Assembly: GCA_032622095.1 (NCBI GenBank) | Contig: CP136067.1 | Coordinates: 201,174,681-201,238,680, forward strand | DNA length: 64,000 bases | Source: Siphonodentalium dalli | Lineage: Eukaryota > Mollusca > Scaphopoda > Gadilida > Siphonodentaliidae | Direction of reading: 5' to 3' | Shown: positions 21,450 to 29,629 of the stretch, one piece after another | Position numbering within the stretch: the first letter of the stretch is position 1 | How the letters are laid out: each line of letters starts with the position of its first letter | Translations under genes and position numbers: made by a program | The notes under the pieces: generated by a model | What the model saw: only the letters and a program-made list of their open reading frames with translations | What the model was told of the DNA's origin: nothing | The model's database searches: none

Positions 21450-22344
21450 TTACAACTGAATGGAGCTAGATTTATACTAGCATATGAGTAAATTTGATTC
21501 CATCCACCGGAGCCGCTAGGAAACAGATTCTGGATAATATATGAGATATTTTCAAAATAAATAATCTGACCTGCGGTGGATTATTTATCTCATGACTTGG
21601 ATAATATGCATTTTTTCACTTGCCAATCGTTCGACCATTTACAAACGTTGTCGACGGATGCTTGTAAATCAATTTTATCGTGCGAACCATGTATTTTCGT
21701 GTCGTCGGCAAAAATTTACAGTCACATTCAAGGTTGTCTGGTAGATCATTGATATACTAGTATAGGAGAAAAAGGTATTGGTCCGAGCACACTCCCTTGA
21801 GGAACACCACTTTTAACCTCTTAGTAGGACGAAGCTTTACCCTGAACAAGCACGCGTTGATAACGCTCTACTAAGAAGTTGTGGATCCATTTTAGAAGTC
21901 CAGCAGAAATTCCTTAGCATCGAAGTTTATGTTCCAACCGGACGTGAGGCACCGAATCGAACGCTTTACAACAGTCCAAGTAAATTGAATCAACGGGTTC
22001 GTTATAGTCCCGATTTCGAGTGACATCTTCAAGATATTCTAACATTTGCGTATGACAGTTCATTTTGGATCGGAAACCGTGCTGTTGCTCGCTCAATAGA
22101 TTGTAGTCATCCATGTGTTTAACTATTGCGTCTCTTATAAAAGACTCGAGAATTTTACACAGAACCGAAGTTAAACTGATAGGTCTGTAATTTCCAGGGT
22201 TTGTTGTGTTTCCTTTCTCGAATAACGGTGTTATATTTGCGGTTTTCCAAATTTTAGGAAGTGTTCCTTCAGATATAGACATGTTGAATAAATTGCAGAG
22301 AGGGATGGCAAGTTCGTGGGAACATTCTTTCAGTATTCTATTGT
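21450..22344 (-). pseudogene. CR1/Jockey-like non-LTR reverse transcriptase, 3' half of the interrupted copy
   Basis: Read on the minus strand from 22344 downward, the frame gives RILKECSHELAIPLCNLFNM, KTANITPLF, NPGNYRPISLTSVLCKILE, QQHGFR, YLDCCKAFDSVPH and, after frameshifts, SGVPQGSVLGPI, INDLPDNL and FADDTKI (about 21,693-21,715). These are the finger and palm motifs of a CR1/Jockey-type reverse transcriptase, with FADD as the catalytic box. Frameshifts near 21,770 and 21,910 make it nonfunctional. It stops abruptly at 22344, where the palindromic element begins. Its upstream half continues at 29,288 on the far side of that element, in the same orientation. The frame that runs on into the element (to 22507) is a chance fusion. 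Confidence 0.9.
22339..22344. other. 6-bp target-site duplication, left (TATTGT)
   Basis: TATTGT directly abuts the left terminus TGATGATAAGG. The same six bases abut the right terminus at 29,288-29,293. Confidence 0.9.
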
Positions 22345-22589
22345 TGATGATAAGGCCCCTGTTTGGGGGTATTTCGGGAACGATAACTCTATTCTCTGCA
22401 GTACTACCGTTGGAGTTTGACCTATATTCTCCGCCCACGCGTCGGTCTACTTGTACCGGTTGGACATGTCCGGACATGACCCGCTGGTTATATCCAGACT
22501 TTTCCATATGAATGGTATAGTATCTACATGTATATCACGTGATGATCTCGGTGGGGTAGCTTCAGTCTTTAATTTTAAAGGGACACTAG

Positions 22590-22690
22590 GCTCTCACGGG
22601 GGATGATTATTAAAGTGACACTCACTATGGATGAATGTTAAAGTAACGCATGGCGCACACTGTGGGATAATGTTAAAGTGACACTCGCAT
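22590..22690. repeat. Subterminal TTAAAGTGAC boxes, left arm
   Basis: TTAAAGTGACACTC, TTAAAGTAACGC and TTAAAGTGACACTC follow TTAAAGGGACACTAGG at intervals of about 27-35 bp. They are mirrored in the right arm at about 28,942-29,060. Repeated subterminal boxes can be binding sites for an element protein, but that is speculation. Confidence 0.65.
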
Positions 22691-22925
22691 TGAAAAGTTC
22701 AAAAAGTTCAAAAAGTTCAAAAAGTTCAAAAAGTTCAAAAAGTTCAAAAAGTTCAAAAAGTTCAAAAAGTTCAAAAATTTCAAAAACTTCAAAAATTTCA
22801 AAAAGGTCAAAAAGTTCAAAAATTTCAAAAACTTACAAAAGTTCAAAAATTTCGAAAAACTTCAAAAACTTCACAAATTTCACAAATTTCACAAATTTCA
22901 CAAATTTCACAAATTTCAAAAAACT
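22690..22925. repeat. (TTCAAAAAG)n minisatellite, left arm
   Basis: A 9-bp unit TTCAAAAAG is repeated about ten times and then degenerates into TTCAAAAATTTCAAAAAC and (TTCACAAAT)5. The left arm has one unit more than the right arm and a G/C difference at the first unit. Confidence 0.95.
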
Positions 22926-23008
22926 TTAAAAATTAAACAAAATTCAGGATTTAGTCATAAATGTGACCCGCTATATCAAATCCAGTCGAAAGTCGGGATT
23001 TTTTTTAT

Positions 23009-23075
23009 CCTGTGCCAATGCATTCTCTTATATATGCGAGTCGACCAGCCACCGCCGCCGGCGGCGGCGGCGGCA
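23009..23075. repeat. MITE half-hairpin module plus CCG/GGC tract, left arm
   Basis: CCTGTGCCAATGCATTCTC plus TTATATATGCGAGTCGACC is identical to the hairpin module of the piggyBac-type MITEs at 3.3, 54.0 and 57.4 kb. It runs into GCCACCGCCGCCGGCGGCGG. The same block is mirrored at about 28,566-28,632. Confidence 0.85.
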
Positions 23076-23279
23076 ACTACATAATCCTATGGCATGCAAA
23101 GAAATTGGCGCCGGCGCTGCCGCCGGCGGTTCAGGATTTAGTCAAAAATATGGCTTGTTTCCATTCATCGGAAAGCTATGGGGGTACGGTGGTGAGCGCC
23201 ACTGAAAAAAGCAAGTGAGCGAGGGAAAAAAGAGAAAAATAACATGACAAGTAGTACATAGTACAATTTATTATATTAA

Positions 23280-25004
23280 CTATTCACAGTCACTTTCGTC
23301 CGAATTGTCATCACTTTCGTCAGATGTGTCATTTGTTTCGTCCATGAACTTTTCTAGCAATGGTCTGTACTTTAATATTGACATTTTCACTGCATCACGA
23401 TCTTCAAAACCATTCTTCATATATTTCTCCACTTTATCCATGACACTGTTGTGCAGCGTACCATTGCGCAGCCACATATTCTTTATTATTGTCCAAGCAT
23501 AAACATTCATAAATAGCCTCATGCCTTCAGTTTTAAGATCTGTACTTTTAAGGTCCTTGTCAGCTTGTACTTTTGCCTCTTTTTCTGTCGAGCCATTTTC
23601 CATATACGTTTCCACGTTATCACTCCATGCTTCTTGTGCTTTATCTCTACTCTCATCACACAAACTTTTGAAGTATTCATCTTCATTCGATTTAATTTTC
23701 TTATTCTGACTATCATCCGTGTCCTCAGTTAATTTTCGTTTTAACTTATTTTCTTGACACCAGTTTTTTACGTGTCTCTGGACATCATGCTGATCTTCGA
23801 ACAAAAGCCCACAGTCATTGCAAGGGTACGACATGTCTTCTCGAATGCCTATGTTTTTATGGTTTTCTTTATTAATTTCATTGATCTCACCAGGTGTCCT
23901 TATGTCCTTAGTATAGCCATTATGTTGACCCTGGGGCACACTATAATTATATGTCATGCACTCCCGTTGACCAGGGAGATCTCTGTCATCATATTTCATC
24001 TCATTCCGTTGATCCGGGCTATTGTTGTCATCACATTTCACCACATTCTGTTCATCTGGGTGCTCGCTGTCCTTATGGAGATTATATTTCATGCCATTCC
24101 ATTCACCCATATGTTGGTTCGTGTCCTCTTTTAGCACATTCTGTCGCAGCCGTAATGTGTCCGGGGTTGCGGCTTTTAAATCCACCAGTAGGTAACCGTA
24201 CGGTTCACTCGTCGCTTCCGAAAACTCTCGCATCATACGTTGAGGGCATTCAGGATACATCTGTCTTGATAATGTTGAAATTAAACCCTTGTCAATTGGA
24301 TTATTGAACAATACCAAATATTGACAATTTCGTCGTTGCGTCGGATCCTTGTTGTAGTAGAAATTCTGGTTCAAACTTATCAAAGATAAGTTCAAATGGT
24401 GACTTCCTTCGGAATGTAAATCATTAACTCTCTGGTCTTTTGATGAAGTTTGCATCAAGTCATCGAGTACAACTAGATTTTTATACTGGGGGTTGATAAG
24501 AGAATCCAAGTTTGCTGGTATTCCCCGTATAAAGTTGACCTGAGGGGTGACGGTATACTTTATGTCATCATATAGGGGCTGCCAATATTTATAAAACCAT
24601 ATTATTCTGTCAGGTGCGGGTGATATTTTTGAGGCAGACTTTTGTAGCAAGGTTTTCACGAAGTACGTCTTCCCACTAGATGTTGGTCCACTTACACATG
24701 CCGTGAATGGATGCTTGAAAATAAAATCTTCTTGGACATTGGCCATTGAATCATCAAAGCAGGATGTTATGTCGCTTTGTTGCTGTTTCCCCTGCTGGTG
24801 TTGTAGTATCTGGTGTTGCTGTAATGGCGGTTGTTGTGGCTGATGATGCTGCTGCCTGTTGCTGCTGCTGCTGTTTATTGCTGCTGCTTGGTGGTGCTGC
24901 TGTGGGTGTCGGTTAACAAACTCAGTGTGCTTAGATTGTACATGTCTTATCAAATCATGGTTCCGCACATACTCACTAGAGCAAATTGAACACTGGTGCT
25001 TCAT
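23280..25004 (-). CDS. Zinc-finger/P-loop ATPase protein, left-arm copy (574 aa)
   Basis: This encodes the same 574-aa protein as the right-arm copy at 26,637-28,361, and the encoded proteins are identical. A TATA box (TATAAAG on the minus strand, 25,050-25,044) lies 40 bp upstream of the ATG. AATAAA follows the stop (23,272-23,267). An intact, undegraded frame of this length in an otherwise decayed region implies recent insertion, or continued homogenisation between the arms. Transcription runs outward, toward the left terminus. The domain description is given with the right-arm copy. Confidence 0.93.
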   Translation of the reverse strand: MKHQCSICSSEYVRNHDLIRHVQSKHTEFVNRHPQQHHQAAAINSSSSNRQQHHQPQQPPLQQHQILQHQQGKQQQSDITSCFDDSMANVQEDFIFKHPFTACVSGPTSSGKTYFVKTLLQKSASKISPAPDRIIWFYKYWQPLYDDIKYTVTPQVNFIRGIPANLDSLINPQYKNLVVLDDLMQTSSKDQRVNDLHSEGSHHLNLSLISLNQNFYYNKDPTQRRNCQYLVLFNNPIDKGLISTLSRQMYPECPQRMMREFSEATSEPYGYLLVDLKAATPDTLRLRQNVLKEDTNQHMGEWNGMKYNLHKDSEHPDEQNVVKCDDNNSPDQRNEMKYDDRDLPGQRECMTYNYSVPQGQHNGYTKDIRTPGEINEINKENHKNIGIREDMSYPCNDCGLLFEDQHDVQRHVKNWCQENKLKRKLTEDTDDSQNKKIKSNEDEYFKSLCDESRDKAQEAWSDNVETYMENGSTEKEAKVQADKDLKSTDLKTEGMRLFMNVYAWTIIKNMWLRNGTLHNSVMDKVEKYMKNGFEDRDAVKMSILKYRPLLEKFMDETNDTSDESDDNSDESDCE

Positions 25005-25068
25005 TTATACTTGACTAAAATATCTCGGGGGTATATGGCTTTCCTTTATACAAATGTTCCTTATAACC

Positions 25069-25164
25069 TCAAATCTGTCCTGTATTAACGGCGGCGGCGT
25101 TTGCCGACGGCGTTTTTTCCACCGGCCTTTCAATAGCCTTCGAAAATTTAGGTAAATTACTCAT
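25069..25164 (-). CDS. 31-aa ORF coupled by ATGA, left-arm copy
   Basis: Mirror of 26,477-26,572. Its start codon overlaps the stop codon of the 73-aa basic protein in an ATGA quadruplet. The peptide begins MSNLPKFSKAIERP and is alanine/proline-rich. Whether it is translated is unknown. Confidence 0.4.
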   Translation of the reverse strand: MSNLPKFSKAIERPVEKTPSANAAAVNTGQI

Positions 25165-25382
25165 TTTAGTTCAGTGAATATGTCGTTTGGAGTTTTCTTT
25201 TTAACTTTTCCAATGTTTGTCTTCTTCGCTCTTCCTCCTTTTATCTCTTTAACTTTTATCTTCTTAGATCCGGGTTTCCTTATAAGTTTTTCAGGTTTCA
25301 CTTCAGTCTTGGGTAGGTACTTCGAGTCATCGTAGGGTACATATTTTTTAAGATCAAAGTCATAATAGTGCGGAGTCCCCAT
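25161..25382 (-). CDS. 73-aa lysine-rich basic protein, left-arm copy
   Basis: Identical in sequence to the right-arm copy at 26,259-26,480. It is preceded by a TATA box (TATATAAAA on the minus strand, about 25,427-25,419). See the right-arm entry for the description. Confidence 0.8.
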   Translation of the reverse strand: MGTPHYYDFDLKKYVPYDDSKYLPKTEVKPEKLIRKPGSKKIKVKEIKGGRAKKTNIGKVKKKTPNDIFTELK

Positions 25383-25528
25383 TCCGGCTAAAGTTCAAAG
25401 TGTACTCTGAAGTAGTAATTTTTATATACGCCAAAATACCATCCAAGACGTATACCCTTATAAACTACGGGTCAGTCCTAGTAACGCGCACGTCAACGCC
25501 GCCGGCGGCGGCGGCGGCGGCGGCGTAT

Positions 25529-25564
<36 letters not shown>
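25529..25564. repeat. (GGC)12 tract, left arm
   Basis: A pure GGC run of 36 bases. The mirrored tract in the right arm is 83 bases, so the arms are not simple copies of one another in the assembly. Confidence 0.95.
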
Positions 25565-25588
25565 TCTGTTGTTGTTGTAGTTGTTGTT

Positions 25589-26004
25589 GTTCACATGTTC
25601 AAACTTCCTGCATTATATACAAGGACGACAGGGACGTGGCGACAGGGGGCTGGGATGTCTGCCCCCACCCTCAACTTTGATAGCAATAAGTTGAAAATGT
25701 CATGCCCGACACATTAGTTGGAATTTTACACCACATGTAGGTTGAACTTGTTTCATTGTCTGATTTTCCAACATGTTATTAGTGTGAAATTTGTAGTTTT
25801 TAGACCAATAATAGTCTGAAATGATGTCCATCCGTCTGTTGGAAATTTAGATTAGACATTTCAAACTGTTCGAACGTTTGAGGTACCAACTTTCCAACCT
25901 AAGGGAGGAGGTGCAAATATGGTATTTGGTATCGGAGTTTGGTCTGGTTGAAGGAGGGGGTGGTGCAATTGGAAATCACTCATAATTGCAATGACATTTG
26001 TATC
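25589..26004. other. Unique central loop of the palindrome
   Basis: About 416 bp with no inverted counterpart, lying between the TTGTTGTTGTAG/CTACAACAACAA edges of the arms. I find no supported gene in it. If the element arose by copy-back synthesis, this is the turnaround segment of the parental genome. Confidence 0.85.
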
Positions 26005-26028
26005 AACAACAACTACAACAACAACAGA

Positions 26029-26029
<1 letters not shown>

Positions 26030-26112
<83 letters not shown>
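26030..26112. repeat. (GCC)n tract, right arm, about 28 units
   Basis: An 83-base pure GCC run, followed by GCATACGCCGCCGCC and an inverted GGCGGCGCC patch that the left arm lacks. Confidence 0.95.
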
Positions 26113-26213
26113 ATACGCCGCCGCCGGCGGCGCCGCCGGCGGCGTTGACGTGCGCGTTACTAGGACTGACCCGTAGTTTATAAGGGTATACGTCTTGGAT
26201 GGTATTTTGGCGT

Positions 26214-26222
26214 ATATAAAAA
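26214..26222 (+). promoter_or_regulatory. TATA box of the basic-protein gene (right arm)
   Basis: TATATAAAA lies 37 bp upstream of the ATG at 26,259. The left arm carries the mirror image. The spacing implies a very short 5' leader. Confidence 0.6.
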
Positions 26223-26258
26223 TTACTACTTCAGAGTACACTTTGAACTTTAGCCGGA

Positions 26259-26480
26259 ATGGGGACTCCGCACTATTATGACTTTGATCTTAAAAAATAT
26301 GTACCCTACGATGACTCGAAGTACCTACCCAAGACTGAAGTGAAACCTGAAAAACTTATAAGGAAACCCGGATCTAAGAAGATAAAAGTTAAAGAGATAA
26401 AAGGAGGAAGAGCGAAGAAGACAAACATTGGAAAAGTTAAAAAGAAAACTCCAAACGACATATTCACTGAACTAAAATGA
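26259..26480 (+). CDS. 73-aa lysine-rich basic protein, right-arm copy
   Basis: The protein starts MGTPHYYDFDLKKYVPYDDS and then becomes strongly basic (RKPGSKKIKVKEIKGG and KKTNIGKVKKK). It has no signal peptide, membrane segment or cysteine. Such small Lys-rich proteins in DNA viruses and virus-like elements are often DNA-condensing core or histone-like proteins. Here that is an analogy, not a homology I can show. The first 29 residues, Tyr/Asp-rich, are distinct from the basic tail, as in a two-part DNA-binding or capsid-attachment protein. It is first in an outward-reading trio, with a TATA box 37 bp upstream, and its TGA overlaps the start of a 31-aa ORF. Identical copies lie in both arms. 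I do not recognise the family. Confidence 0.8.
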   Translation: MGTPHYYDFDLKKYVPYDDSKYLPKTEVKPEKLIRKPGSKKIKVKEIKGGRAKKTNIGKVKKKTPNDIFTELK

Positions 26481-26572
26481 GTAATTTACCTAAATTTTCG
26501 AAGGCTATTGAAAGGCCGGTGGAAAAAACGCCGTCGGCAAACGCCGCCGCCGTTAATACAGGACAGATTTGA
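26477..26572 (+). CDS. 31-aa ORF coupled by ATGA, right-arm copy
   Basis: The ATG lies inside the ATGA that also supplies the TGA stop of the basic protein (26,477-26,480). The peptide (MSNLPKFSKAIERP..., ending VNTGQI) matches no family I know. ATGA or TAATG overlaps permit termination-reinitiation in some viral and retrotransposon mRNAs. The overlap is what is seen; translation is inference. Confidence 0.4.
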   Translation: MSNLPKFSKAIERPVEKTPSANAAAVNTGQI

Positions 26573-26590
26573 GGTTATAAGGAACATTTG

Positions 26591-26597
26591 TATAAAG
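26591..26597 (+). promoter_or_regulatory. TATA box of the 574-aa gene (right arm)
   Basis: TATAAAG lies 40 bp upstream of the ATG at 26,637. It is mirrored at 25,044-25,050. A separate promoter for the second gene means the trio need not be one transcript. Confidence 0.6.
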
Positions 26598-26636
26598 GAA
26601 AGCCATATACCCCCGAGATATTTTAGTCAAGTATAA

Positions 26637-28361
26637 ATGAAGCACCAGTGTTCAATTTGCTCTAGTGAGTATGTGCGGAACCATGATTTGATAAGACATG
26701 TACAATCTAAGCACACTGAGTTTGTTAACCGACACCCACAGCAGCACCACCAAGCAGCAGCAATAAACAGCAGCAGCAGCAACAGGCAGCAGCATCATCA
26801 GCCACAACAACCGCCATTACAGCAACACCAGATACTACAACACCAGCAGGGGAAACAGCAACAAAGCGACATAACATCCTGCTTTGATGATTCAATGGCC
26901 AATGTCCAAGAAGATTTTATTTTCAAGCATCCATTCACGGCATGTGTAAGTGGACCAACATCTAGTGGGAAGACGTACTTCGTGAAAACCTTGCTACAAA
27001 AGTCTGCCTCAAAAATATCACCCGCACCTGACAGAATAATATGGTTTTATAAATATTGGCAGCCCCTATATGATGACATAAAGTATACCGTCACCCCTCA
27101 GGTCAACTTTATACGGGGAATACCAGCAAACTTGGATTCTCTTATCAACCCCCAGTATAAAAATCTAGTTGTACTCGATGACTTGATGCAAACTTCATCA
27201 AAAGACCAGAGAGTTAATGATTTACATTCCGAAGGAAGTCACCATTTGAACTTATCTTTGATAAGTTTGAACCAGAATTTCTACTACAACAAGGATCCGA
27301 CGCAACGACGAAATTGTCAATATTTGGTATTGTTCAATAATCCAATTGACAAGGGTTTAATTTCAACATTATCAAGACAGATGTATCCTGAATGCCCTCA
27401 ACGTATGATGCGAGAGTTTTCGGAAGCGACGAGTGAACCGTACGGTTACCTACTGGTGGATTTAAAAGCCGCAACCCCGGACACATTACGGCTGCGACAG
27501 AATGTGCTAAAAGAGGACACGAACCAACATATGGGTGAATGGAATGGCATGAAATATAATCTCCATAAGGACAGCGAGCACCCAGATGAACAGAATGTGG
27601 TGAAATGTGATGACAACAATAGCCCGGATCAACGGAATGAGATGAAATATGATGACAGAGATCTCCCTGGTCAACGGGAGTGCATGACATATAATTATAG
27701 TGTGCCCCAGGGTCAACATAATGGCTATACTAAGGACATAAGGACACCTGGTGAGATCAATGAAATTAATAAAGAAAACCATAAAAACATAGGCATTCGA
27801 GAAGACATGTCGTACCCTTGCAATGACTGTGGGCTTTTGTTCGAAGATCAGCATGATGTCCAGAGACACGTAAAAAACTGGTGTCAAGAAAATAAGTTAA
27901 AACGAAAATTAACTGAGGACACGGATGATAGTCAGAATAAGAAAATTAAATCGAATGAAGATGAATACTTCAAAAGTTTGTGTGATGAGAGTAGAGATAA
28001 AGCACAAGAAGCATGGAGTGATAACGTGGAAACGTATATGGAAAATGGCTCGACAGAAAAAGAGGCAAAAGTACAAGCTGACAAGGACCTTAAAAGTACA
28101 GATCTTAAAACTGAAGGCATGAGGCTATTTATGAATGTTTATGCTTGGACAATAATAAAGAATATGTGGCTGCGCAATGGTACGCTGCACAACAGTGTCA
28201 TGGATAAAGTGGAGAAATATATGAAGAATGGTTTTGAAGATCGTGATGCAGTGAAAATGTCAATATTAAAGTACAGACCATTGCTAGAAAAGTTCATGGA
28301 CGAAACAAATGACACATCTGACGAAAGTGATGACAATTCGGACGAAAGTGACTGTGAATAG
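26637..28361 (+). CDS. Zinc-finger/P-loop ATPase protein, right-arm copy (574 aa)
   Basis: Residues 5-26 form a classical C2H2 finger (C5, C8, H21, H26). Residues 34-77 are a Gln/His-rich linker. A P-loop NTPase core follows: FKHPFTACVSGPTSSGKTYF with Walker A GPTSSGKT at 106-113, Walker B NLVVLDD at 176-182, and a sensor-like SLISLNQN at 207-214. The core ends near residue 290. Residues 297-372 hold about five degenerate 15-residue repeats (NEMKYDD...PGQR). A second finger of C2HC type spans 395-416 and a basic KRKL...KKIK patch 422-438. A helical region (440-555) and a Ser/Asp/Glu tail complete it. The core resembles virus-type packaging ATPases (A32/FtsK-HerA), although a different P-loop class is possible. 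From memory, uncharacterised proteins with this 'HPFTxxVSGPTxxGKTxFVxxLL' start are frequent in invertebrate genomes. AATAAA sits at 28,369-28,374. Confidence 0.93.
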   Translation: MKHQCSICSSEYVRNHDLIRHVQSKHTEFVNRHPQQHHQAAAINSSSSNRQQHHQPQQPPLQQHQILQHQQGKQQQSDITSCFDDSMANVQEDFIFKHPFTACVSGPTSSGKTYFVKTLLQKSASKISPAPDRIIWFYKYWQPLYDDIKYTVTPQVNFIRGIPANLDSLINPQYKNLVVLDDLMQTSSKDQRVNDLHSEGSHHLNLSLISLNQNFYYNKDPTQRRNCQYLVLFNNPIDKGLISTLSRQMYPECPQRMMREFSEATSEPYGYLLVDLKAATPDTLRLRQNVLKEDTNQHMGEWNGMKYNLHKDSEHPDEQNVVKCDDNNSPDQRNEMKYDDRDLPGQRECMTYNYSVPQGQHNGYTKDIRTPGEINEINKENHKNIGIREDMSYPCNDCGLLFEDQHDVQRHVKNWCQENKLKRKLTEDTDDSQNKKIKSNEDEYFKSLCDESRDKAQEAWSDNVETYMENGSTEKEAKVQADKDLKSTDLKTEGMRLFMNVYAWTIIKNMWLRNGTLHNSVMDKVEKYMKNGFEDRDAVKMSILKYRPLLEKFMDETNDTSDESDDNSDESDCE

Positions 28362-28368
28362 TTAATAT

Positions 28369-28374
28369 AATAAA
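28369..28374 (+). terminator. Polyadenylation signal of the 574-aa gene (right arm)
   Basis: AATAAA lies 8 bases after the TAG stop. The mirror-image TTTATT is at 23,267-23,272. Confidence 0.7.
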
Positions 28375-28565
28375 TTGTACTATGTACTACTTGTCATGTT
28401 ATTTTTCTCTTTTTTCCCTCGCTCACTTGCTTTTTTCAGTGGCGCTCACCACCGTACCCCCATAGCTTTCCGATGAATGGAAACAAGCCATATTTTTGAC
28501 TAAATCCTGAACCGCCGGCGGCAGCGCCGGCGCCAATTTCTTTGCATGCCATAGGATTATGTAGT

Positions 28566-28632
28566 TGCCGCCGCCGCCGCCGGCGGCGGTGGCTGGTCGA
28601 CTCGCATATATAAGAGAATGCATTGGCACAGG
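28566..28632. repeat. MITE half-hairpin module plus CCG/GGC tract, right arm
   Basis: Mirror copy of 23,009-23,075. Confidence 0.85.
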
Positions 28633-28715
28633 ATAAAAAAAATCCCGACTTTCGACTGGATTTGATATAGCGGGTCACATTTATGACTAAATCCTGAATT
28701 TTGTTTAATTTTTAA

Positions 28716-28940
28716 AGTTTTTTGAAATTTGTGAAATTTGTGAAATTTGTGAAATTTGTGAAATTTGTGAAGTTTTTGAAGTTTTTCGAAATTTTTGAAC
28801 TTTTGTAAGTTTTTGAAATTTTTGAACTTTTTGACCTTTTTGAAATTTTTGAAGTTTTTGAAATTTTTGAACTTTTTGAACTTTTTGAACTTTTTGAACT
28901 TTTTGAACTTTTTGAACTTTTTGAACTTTTTGAAGTTTTC
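28716..28940. repeat. (CTTTTTGAA)n minisatellite, right arm
   Basis: Mirror of the left-arm array, one 9-bp unit shorter, with a single-base difference at the outermost unit. Confidence 0.95.
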
Positions 28941-29287
28941 AATGCGAGTGTCACTTTAACATTATCCCACAGTGTGCGCCATGCGTTACTTTAACATTCA
29001 TCCATAGTGAGTGTCACTTTAATAATCATCCCCCGTGAGAGCCTAGTGTCCCTTTAAAATTAAAGACTGAAGCTACCCCACCGAGATCATCACGTGATAT
29101 ACATGTAGATACTATACCATTCATATGGAAAAGTCTGGATATAACCAGCGGGTCATGTCCGGACATGTCCAACCGGTACAAGTAGACCGACGCGTGGGCG
29201 GAGAATATAGGTCAAACTCCAACGGTAGTACTGCAGAGAATAGAGTTATCGTTCCTGAAATACCCCCAAACAGGGGCCTTATCATCA

Positions 29288-29293
29288 TATTGT
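29288..29293. other. 6-bp target-site duplication, right (TATTGT)
   Basis: Exact partner of 22,339-22,344. Only one copy is needed to make the two retrotransposon halves contiguous. Confidence 0.9.
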
Positions 29294-29580
29294 GGATTCC
29301 ATTCGAATATTTGATAAATCCTCTTCTGTAAACACACTGCTGAAAAATTTCAGGATGGATATAGCTTTCGACTTGTTATCGGTTGTAGTTTTTGCGAGGA
29401 ACTATCTATGAGATCTGGAATTTTGTGTTTTATTGTAGTTTTACTCTGAACATAGTTCCAAAACGCTTTTGGATTTTGTTTAATTTCTGTTAATAATTTT
29501 CGTTCGAATTGTTTTTTGGCACCCCGTGTTCTGTCAGTAACTTTGTTCCTCATTATTCTATATTCGAGGGTCAACACCGG
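29288..29580 (-). pseudogene. CR1/Jockey-like retrotransposon, 5' half of the interrupted copy
   Basis: On the minus strand, LEYRIMRNKVTDRTRGAKKQ then FERKLLTEIKQNPKAFWNYV is the segment that precedes the reverse transcriptase in CR1/Jockey ORF2 ('RNKVTxxIRxAKxxFExxLxxExKxNPKAFWxYV'). After a frameshift near 29,350 it continues FFSSVFTEEDLSNI, also conserved, and reaches the junction at 29,288. With one TSD copy retained, one open frame passes from this flank into 22,344 at the point expected for the family. A segment of roughly 60 residues normally found before this point seems deleted. Similarity fades above about 29,580. Confidence 0.85.
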
Positions 29581-29629
29581 CGGTCGCCCATATGAACGTG
29601 GCGTTTGCCATATACAAGACATTTAGTAG

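Follow-up and report, generated by a model that had tools for sequence, protein, structure and literature searches.

Structure of a palindromic virus-like element in Siphonodentalium dalli

The window analysed here is a 64,000-nucleotide (nt) stretch of the genome of the scaphopod mollusc Siphonodentalium dalli (GenBank assembly GCA_032622095.1, contig CP136067.1, positions 201,174,681 to 201,238,680 of the forward strand). The analysis confirmed that positions 22345-29287 hold one whole element of 6943 bp that is an inverted repeat along its full length, as the initial annotation of this DNA had described. Its arms are 3.2-3.3 kb each and enclose a centre of 414 nt between 25589 and 26004. 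The core arms (22702-25564 and 26077-28939, 2863 nt) are 100% identical, and the outermost 588 nt (22345-22932 and 28700-29287) align at 95% between arms because the AAAAGTTC repeat tract differs in length. The element starts with TGATGATA and ends with TATCATCA, the longer terminal reads being TGATGATAAGGCCCC...GGGGCCTTATCATCA, and an exact 6-bp target duplication, TATTGT, flanks both sides. Each arm carries the outward-reading gene trio previously described, comprising a 574-amino-acid (aa) open reading frame (ORF) that matches packaging ATPases, a 73-aa basic ORF, and a 31-aa ORF with an ATG that shares bases with the stop codon of the 73-aa ORF (as read in the right-arm sequence). The palindrome itself is the repeated unit, one of a multicopy family and not a lone defective genome. 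The features of the window copy are as follows.

22339..22344, + strand: left target-site duplication TATTGT (flank comparison)
22345..22690, + strand: left terminus, TGATGATA and terminal mosaic region that varies among copies (copy alignment)
22697..22940, + strand: left subterminal AAAAGTTC-type repeat tract (sequence; shifted inverted repeats)
23280..25004, - strand: left-arm 574-aa C2H2/A32-type packaging ATPase, intact (ORF, Pfam)
25069..25164, - strand: left-arm putative 31-aa ORF overlapping the basic-protein stop (mirror of right-arm ORF)
25161..25382, - strand: left-arm 73-aa basic protein, no homologue found (ORF, homologue search)
25590..26003, no strand: central unique loop (inverted-repeat boundaries)
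26259..26480, + strand: right-arm 73-aa basic protein (ORF)
26477..26572, + strand: right-arm 31-aa ORF with ATGA overlap with the preceding stop (read from sequence)
26637..28361, + strand: right-arm 574-aa ATPase, identical to the left-arm copy (ORF, Pfam)
28700..28940, - strand: right subterminal repeat tract (inverted repeat)
28942..29287, - strand: right terminus, one difference from the left within the first 60 nt (end comparison)
29288..29293, + strand: right target-site duplication TATTGT (flank comparison)

The overlap between the 73-aa stop and the 31-aa start at 26477-26480 could permit coupled translation.

The palindrome is the repeated unit of a genome-wide family

When one arm was used as a DNA query against the genome (2.23 Gb in 9 contigs), 54 matches were obtained (best 40 of 4978 candidates scored), and 25 loci chosen from the best-scoring matches were examined together with the window copy (W), giving a sample of 26 loci. 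Two long arms are present at 21 of the 26 loci, and the copies are spread over all nine contigs. Both termini were found at 24 loci, every one with an exact 6-bp duplication and together representing 23 different duplication sequences; the duplications were scored twice, by a script accepting exact duplications only and independently by comparing the flanks by eye. Copy length is 6706-7110 bp in 21 copies, with shortened versions in L029 (4404 bp), L032 (6053 bp) and L033 (3881 bp). The loop is 97.9-100% identical over 409-431 bp at 21 of the 26 loci, partial in L010 and L032, and represented just by its edge in L033; L025 is a single arm and L030 is interrupted by an assembly gap. The earlier idea of a sporadic defective copy-back genome is not supported, given this recurrence of one palindrome with the same loop.

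A query with the ATPase protein returned 76 matches at 97% identity or more (best 76 of 5397 candidates), which form 28 close pairs, all 28 divergent, plus 20 matches without a partner among the matches listed. Twelve of these 20 had not been seen previously and six of the twelve were read (L035-L040). In three of them (L035, L036 and L040) a palindrome encloses the loop, at 91-98%. L037 is also palindromic but has another, short centre and a deletion, and its terminus matches on the left side only. L038 consists of one arm, and in L039 an arm adjoins 90 bp of a second arm in inverted orientation. By eye, the arms of L037 (C1:59891000-59895400) continue at 740-1040 into what is loop sequence, present once, in the window element; a second turn-round event would produce this pattern.

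No longer element continuing past the loop was found among the 26 loci and the six single ATPase matches read. L025, L038 and L039 were considered as possible parents, and have no interior in common apart from a 39-bp arm piece and, between L025 and L039, some repeat matches at 70-80%. L029 and L033, each with one short arm, were considered as ancestral single-ATPase forms; L029 retains the inner end of the second arm and is therefore a deletion derivative of the palindrome.

Palindromes are a known artefact of long-read assembly, produced by missed hairpin adapters or collapsed arms. Here, 24 two-ended copies lie in their own flanks with exact duplications and arm-specific mutations are resolved, so that an artefact is very unlikely, and the palindrome is not due to chance.

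The 6-bp target sites have a symmetric preference, with A rare at position 3 (1/24) and T rare at position 4 (1/24), as a symmetric integrase complex would give. The window copy is inserted in a remnant resembling a long interspersed nuclear element (LINE) (RVT_1, E 1.4e-11), and the RVT_1-matching 197-aa reverse-transcriptase ORF begins inside the element. The remnant occupies 21914-22345 on the left, with reverse-transcriptase sequence, and 29350-29622 on the right, where the ORF resembles a continuation of it.

Arms match within copies and ends are shuffled among copies

In the outer 290 bp, copies differ from each other by a mean of 3.7% and by up to 8.5%, but within a copy the arms are free of substitutions 19 times out of 22 and carry a single one in each of the other three cases. 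Exact identity of the outer pair was observed in 15 of 22 copies, compared with at most 6 in 10,000 shuffles of arm pairing. Over the inner 2281 bp, the arms of one copy differ by a mean of 0.07% versus 0.29% between copies, and 11 of 21 copies have inner arms without substitution. Where a site has two alleles, both of them found in at least two copies, the two arms of a copy carry the same allele in 187 of 189 element-cells of the inner part, 495 of 496 of the outer part and 1406 of 1408 of the terminal part. Private inner changes are present in both arms of a copy in 23 cases and in one arm only in 32, and a 1-nt insertion in L019 creates the same first stop in both arms. Since copies differ strongly in their outer parts and yet have matched ends and arms, the moving form apparently uses one arm as the template for renewing the other, which is what hairpin or snapback replication predicts.

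TGATGATA is present at both ends in the 24 copies, with the exception of the right end of L015, which is TGATGACA. Beyond it, the ends combine short alternative cassettes. In 21 of 24 copies the two ends agree throughout their first 60 nt (W has one difference, L015 two and L032 an indel), and over 345 aligned nt no column differs between the ends in 15 of 24. Within the terminal 345 nt, 268 of 496 biallelic site pairs failed the four-gamete test, and outer and inner between-copy distances show no significant correlation (Mantel r 0.12, p 0.20); therefore, the ends seem to recombine among copies. The terminus TGATGA is a tandem 3-nt end, which by analogy fits the jumping-back rule for Maverick end motifs, whose short tandem form is said to permit jumping back (PMC8097293, in part).

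The concordance fits strongly with the second arm being a replication copy of the first, and host gene conversion would yield part of the same signal. If conversion or recombination after insertion keeps the arms alike, as in other long genomic palindromes, the 23 copy-private changes in both arms would also be expected, and the concordance would be silent on replication. For the Galileo transposons, whose two terminal inverted repeats (TIRs) in one copy are 98-100% identical, recombination and conversion among copies have been invoked (PMC3573991, in part). However, conversion is not fast on inserted copies: one-arm versus both-arm inner changes number 4/0 in L015, 3/0 in L011 and 5/1 in L024, yet over the first 60 nt L011 and L024 have two identical ends and L015 has 2 differences between its ends. 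In L017, L022, L024, L026, L027 and L034, stops or frameshifts likewise persist in a single arm. The persistence of one-arm changes in copies with matching ends (L011 and L024) argues for homogenisation in the moving form and not later in the chromosome, and we consider host conversion an unlikely full account of the matched arms.

The packaging ATPase and its relatives

The Pfam scan covered the ATPase, the 73-aa ORF and the 197-aa reverse-transcriptase ORF, and for the remaining ORFs length and sequence served as the guide. The 574-aa protein has a Pox_A32 match of 26.5 bits (cut-off 22.8), C2H2 fingers and Adeno_IVa2 match it below their cut-offs, and its P-loop is GPTSSGKT. At E 1e-3 or better there are 185 homologues, 120 of them listed, and those listed with organism names belong to bivalves (Mizuhopecten, Pecten, Pinctada, Mytilus, Mya, Mercenaria, Ruditapes and Solemya) or to bacterial records, which we take to be bivalve symbionts with host DNA. 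Some Mya gene models fuse a related ATPase to integrase-type sequence or a chromodomain, and the C5-protease domain PF00770 occurs in one Mytilus model. One contig from a Bathymodiolus symbiont record, taken to be mussel DNA, has the ATPase in divergent orientation to a DNA_pol_B_2 fragment whose score of 22.1 bits (E 8e-5) is below the Pfam cut-off of 25.8. Thus, relatives of the ATPase adjoin Maverick-type genes.

The search revealed no homologue of the 73-aa basic protein, and no ATPase relative was found in the viral contigs or phage records searched. Structure prediction of the ATPase was poor (mean predicted local distance difference test score 66.5, predicted template modelling score 0.42), giving a fold too weak to be informative; a fold search with it returned nothing at E 0.001 or better (best 0.012), and matches to PDB sequences were mostly zinc fingers.

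Invariant residues in 19 ATPase sequences from several species indicate that the protein has been constrained over longer times. Among the loci examined, 37 of 46 full-length copies are intact. Unique codon changes, as synonymous/nonsynonymous/stop, number 3/5/0 when found in more than one copy, 4/10/0 when in both arms of one copy and 12/25/4 when in one arm only, against a random expectation of 26/70/4.5%, and by this comparison no purifying selection is seen among copies. Because these proportions are near neutral, the intactness of the ATPase may reflect recent spread.

Alternatively, the palindrome could be a cut-and-paste transposon of the foldback type whose terminal repeats are very long, which an ordinary transposase mobilises and in which the ATPase is a captured passenger. 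Galileo likewise has long arms and tandem repeats in subterminal position, and its TIRs are described as being extended and exchanged among copies (PMC3573991, in part). This account appears improbable, as each arm encodes a viral-type packaging ATPase that is mostly intact, the duplications are 6 bp and not 7, and the element has no transposase-sized ORF besides the ATPase.

Longer elements with the same termini

Matches to a degenerate terminus pattern were counted genome-wide, giving 486 forward and 475 reverse matches, and none on either strand with the reversed control. Positions are known for 100 listed places, all on contig C1. Among these are 38 neighbouring plus/minus terminus pairs within 20 kb, 15 of them, such as C1:25001203-25015584, at 13.95-15.06 kb, 9 at 6.2-7.2 kb and 14 at other sizes of 1.6-10.2 kb. 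The 14-mer following TGATGATA is identical at both ends in 33 of the 38 listed pairs (at most 12 in shuffles). Of the other five, 27894264/27896587 is a nested mis-pairing, 90442914 is a palindrome with clearly discordant ends, and the pairs at C1 109981301, 244114011 and 246297976 each differ by 1 nt.

An ATPase motif pattern gave 461 and 485 matches on the two strands genome-wide and none in the control. The listed motif positions reach about 229.9 Mb of C1 and thereby cover 12 of the 15 elements of 14-15 kb and 7 of the 9 elements of 6.2-7.2 kb. Two motifs were found in six of the seven checkable 6.2-7.2 kb elements, the seventh (C1:26577002) having none. In the 14-15 kb class, the motif was found in 0 of 12 checkable elements, where a changed or intron-split motif would be missed. 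The initial annotation had expected the copy-back origin to be reflected in a longer element with the same terminus and the ATPase. A 14-15 kb class with these ends does exist, although none of its 12 checkable members has the motif, and in the part of the family read no relative of the palindrome runs on past the loop. The outcome that the initial annotation named as refuting, a family made up of the same palindrome with no longer parent, thus holds by half.

These data bear on the idea that the palindrome arose by internal deletion from a longer element already having ATPase-containing 3.2-kb terminal repeats. Longer elements with the same ends exist, and the paired ends listed at 1.6-10.2 kb demonstrate frequent size variation; nevertheless, the distribution of the motif between the two size classes and the recurrence of one loop in 21 of 26 loci make such a derivation quite improbable.

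Close ATPase motif pairs in the C1 list are divergent in 32 of 33 cases and convergent in one. Seven pairs have a spacing of 2.33-2.43 kb and lie inside paired termini, and one is spaced at 3.26 kb. The remaining 25, L037 among them, are spaced at 0.79-1.95 kb and do not lie inside paired termini; these may represent further palindromic subfamilies that turn round at other distances or have other ends, or they may be copies with deletions. Four of these 25 carry a different DNA version of the motif.

A search of the genome for family B DNA polymerase (PolB) genes, in which the best 69 of 1596 candidates were scored, returned an abundant separate family with open frames of about 952 aa (frames 803-1178) at about 58 of the 69 scored places, for example C2:222986964-222989051. 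A second family has frames of 1312-1330 aa in ten of these places and 1098 aa in one. The 952-aa family was considered as a helper and set aside, the flanks of one copy (L041 and L042) having neither the terminus nor a significant arm match. Downstream of one copy, L041 contains an opposite-strand open frame of 201 codons up to the end of the stretch read. By eye, no PolB match on C1 among those scored lies inside any listed 14-15 kb terminus pair. At C1:147782600-147794004, a match to the 952-aa family lies about 6-8 kb from the sole convergent ATPase motif pair listed, which may be a coincidence.

A proposed helper-dependent palindromic lineage

We propose that the palindrome is a multicopy, non-autonomous, virus-like mobile element whose stable form consists of two divergent ATPase cassettes around a loop of about 414 bp, and that it depends on a helper and is replicated through a hairpin. 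We place the probability of this joint reading at about 0.6. Alongside the observed palindrome family, 6-bp duplications, arm-to-arm concordance, terminal mosaicism and longer same-end elements, we infer protein priming, a hairpin intermediate and helper enzymes. A helper element would supply a protein-primed polymerase and an integrase. Priming at TGATGATA would displace a strand whose two arms anneal into a hairpin, and copying from its single open end, through the loop and back, would produce a full palindrome. Both arms and both ends would therefore derive from one strand. The integrase would then insert the palindrome with a 6-bp duplication, template switching near the ends would shuffle terminal cassettes among elements, and the next hairpin copy would place a new end on both sides. 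The snapback origin proposed in the initial annotation is retained insofar as the virus-like ATPase, the 6-bp duplication, a terminal tandem repeat as for protein priming and the seemingly inter-copied arms are in keeping with it; the form it takes is instead a stable, multiplying palindromic lineage.

Several observations weigh against this proposal. End matching is not specific to palindromes, since the ends match in 14 of the 15 listed 14-15 kb elements. In the 6.8-kb palindrome C1:90442914-90449721 the cassettes of one end clearly differ from those of the other, an argument against strict copying each time the element cycles, and over 345 aligned nt the ends differ by 1-17 columns (gaps included) in 9 of 24 copies. 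An inner arm is nearer to another copy than to its own partner in 3 of 21 copies (L011, L015 and L024), and the inner piece by itself is a weak signal with little resolution. The examined copies were selected from the best-scoring matches, and the proportions of codon changes in the ATPase are nearly neutral. None of the elements with these ends yielded a polymerase, integrase or capsid gene in the sequence read, and the lack of the ATPase motif in the 12 checkable 14-15 kb elements leaves this class unsupported as copy-back parents of the palindrome.

The 14-15 kb elements may be the helpers. A more speculative extension, which we judge rather unlikely, is a two-part Maverick-like germline virus system in which 14-15 kb elements without the ATPase and palindromes with two copies of it bear the same shuffled ends and need each other, the palindrome being a permanent hairpin-replicated segment whose cassettes are exchanged in a common pool. 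If the 14-15 kb elements prove to be helpers without the ATPase, the packaging motor of an animal endogenous virus would reside on a palindromic unit of its own. An inverted repeat over the whole length makes copying visible through matched arms, shuffled matched ends and one-arm mutations, so that genome sequence alone could reveal replication, recombination and insertion age, and the two arms could date insertions as long terminal repeats do.

Comparison with known systems

Defective palindromic adenovirus genomes derive from protein-primed linear DNA with repeated ends able to snap back, and they arise in virus stocks and are not known as chromosomal families. The snapback subgenomes of adeno-associated virus (AAV) are self-complementary, contain one genome end, exist with or without an unpaired loop and replicate with helper functions; the 3' snapback genomes have head-to-head promoters at the centre, said to raise expression of the retained gene (PMC8235507, in part). 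They are similar to the present element in self-complementary form and differ in being found in parvovirus particles, whereas the present element is a chromosomally inserted multicopy lineage with a common loop.

The Foldback/Galileo transposons resemble the present element in having long inverted repeats around a short centre, subterminal repeats and matched mosaic TIRs (PMC3573991, in part). Galileo differs in its 7-bp duplications, its P-type transposase and the lack of a viral ATPase.

Unlike Mavericks/Polintons, the 6.9-kb element has no ORF for a protein-primed PolB or retroviral-type integrase in the ORF list for 22345-29287, and no candidate ORF for a double jelly-roll capsid or adenain protease. 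No report of a palindromic Maverick was found in the titles and abstract openings of the literature searched, and the terms "palindrom" and "hairpin" do not occur in PMC8097293 or PMC4642659. The present element is palindromic as a whole, unlike Mavericks, and its 3.2-3.3 kb arms around a 414-bp centre differ from reported Maverick TIRs of 46-1447 bp with unique genes between them; its end, (TGA)2TA, differs from the Maverick ends (AGT)2, (AG)3 or (AC)3A (PMC8097293, in part). Expansion of inverted repeats has been reported for Polintons (PMC3573991, in part). For Mavericks, adenovirus-like replication by protein priming is expected and no particles had been observed; intact vertebrate Mavericks measure 12.7-24.6 kb, a range into which the 14-15 kb same-end class falls (PMC8097293, in part). 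The Polinton/Maverick traits noted in the initial annotation hold: like Mavericks/Polintons and adintoviruses, the palindromic element makes 6-bp target duplications (24 of 24 copies with both ends), has inverted ends starting with a short tandem repeat, and encodes an A32-type packaging ATPase.

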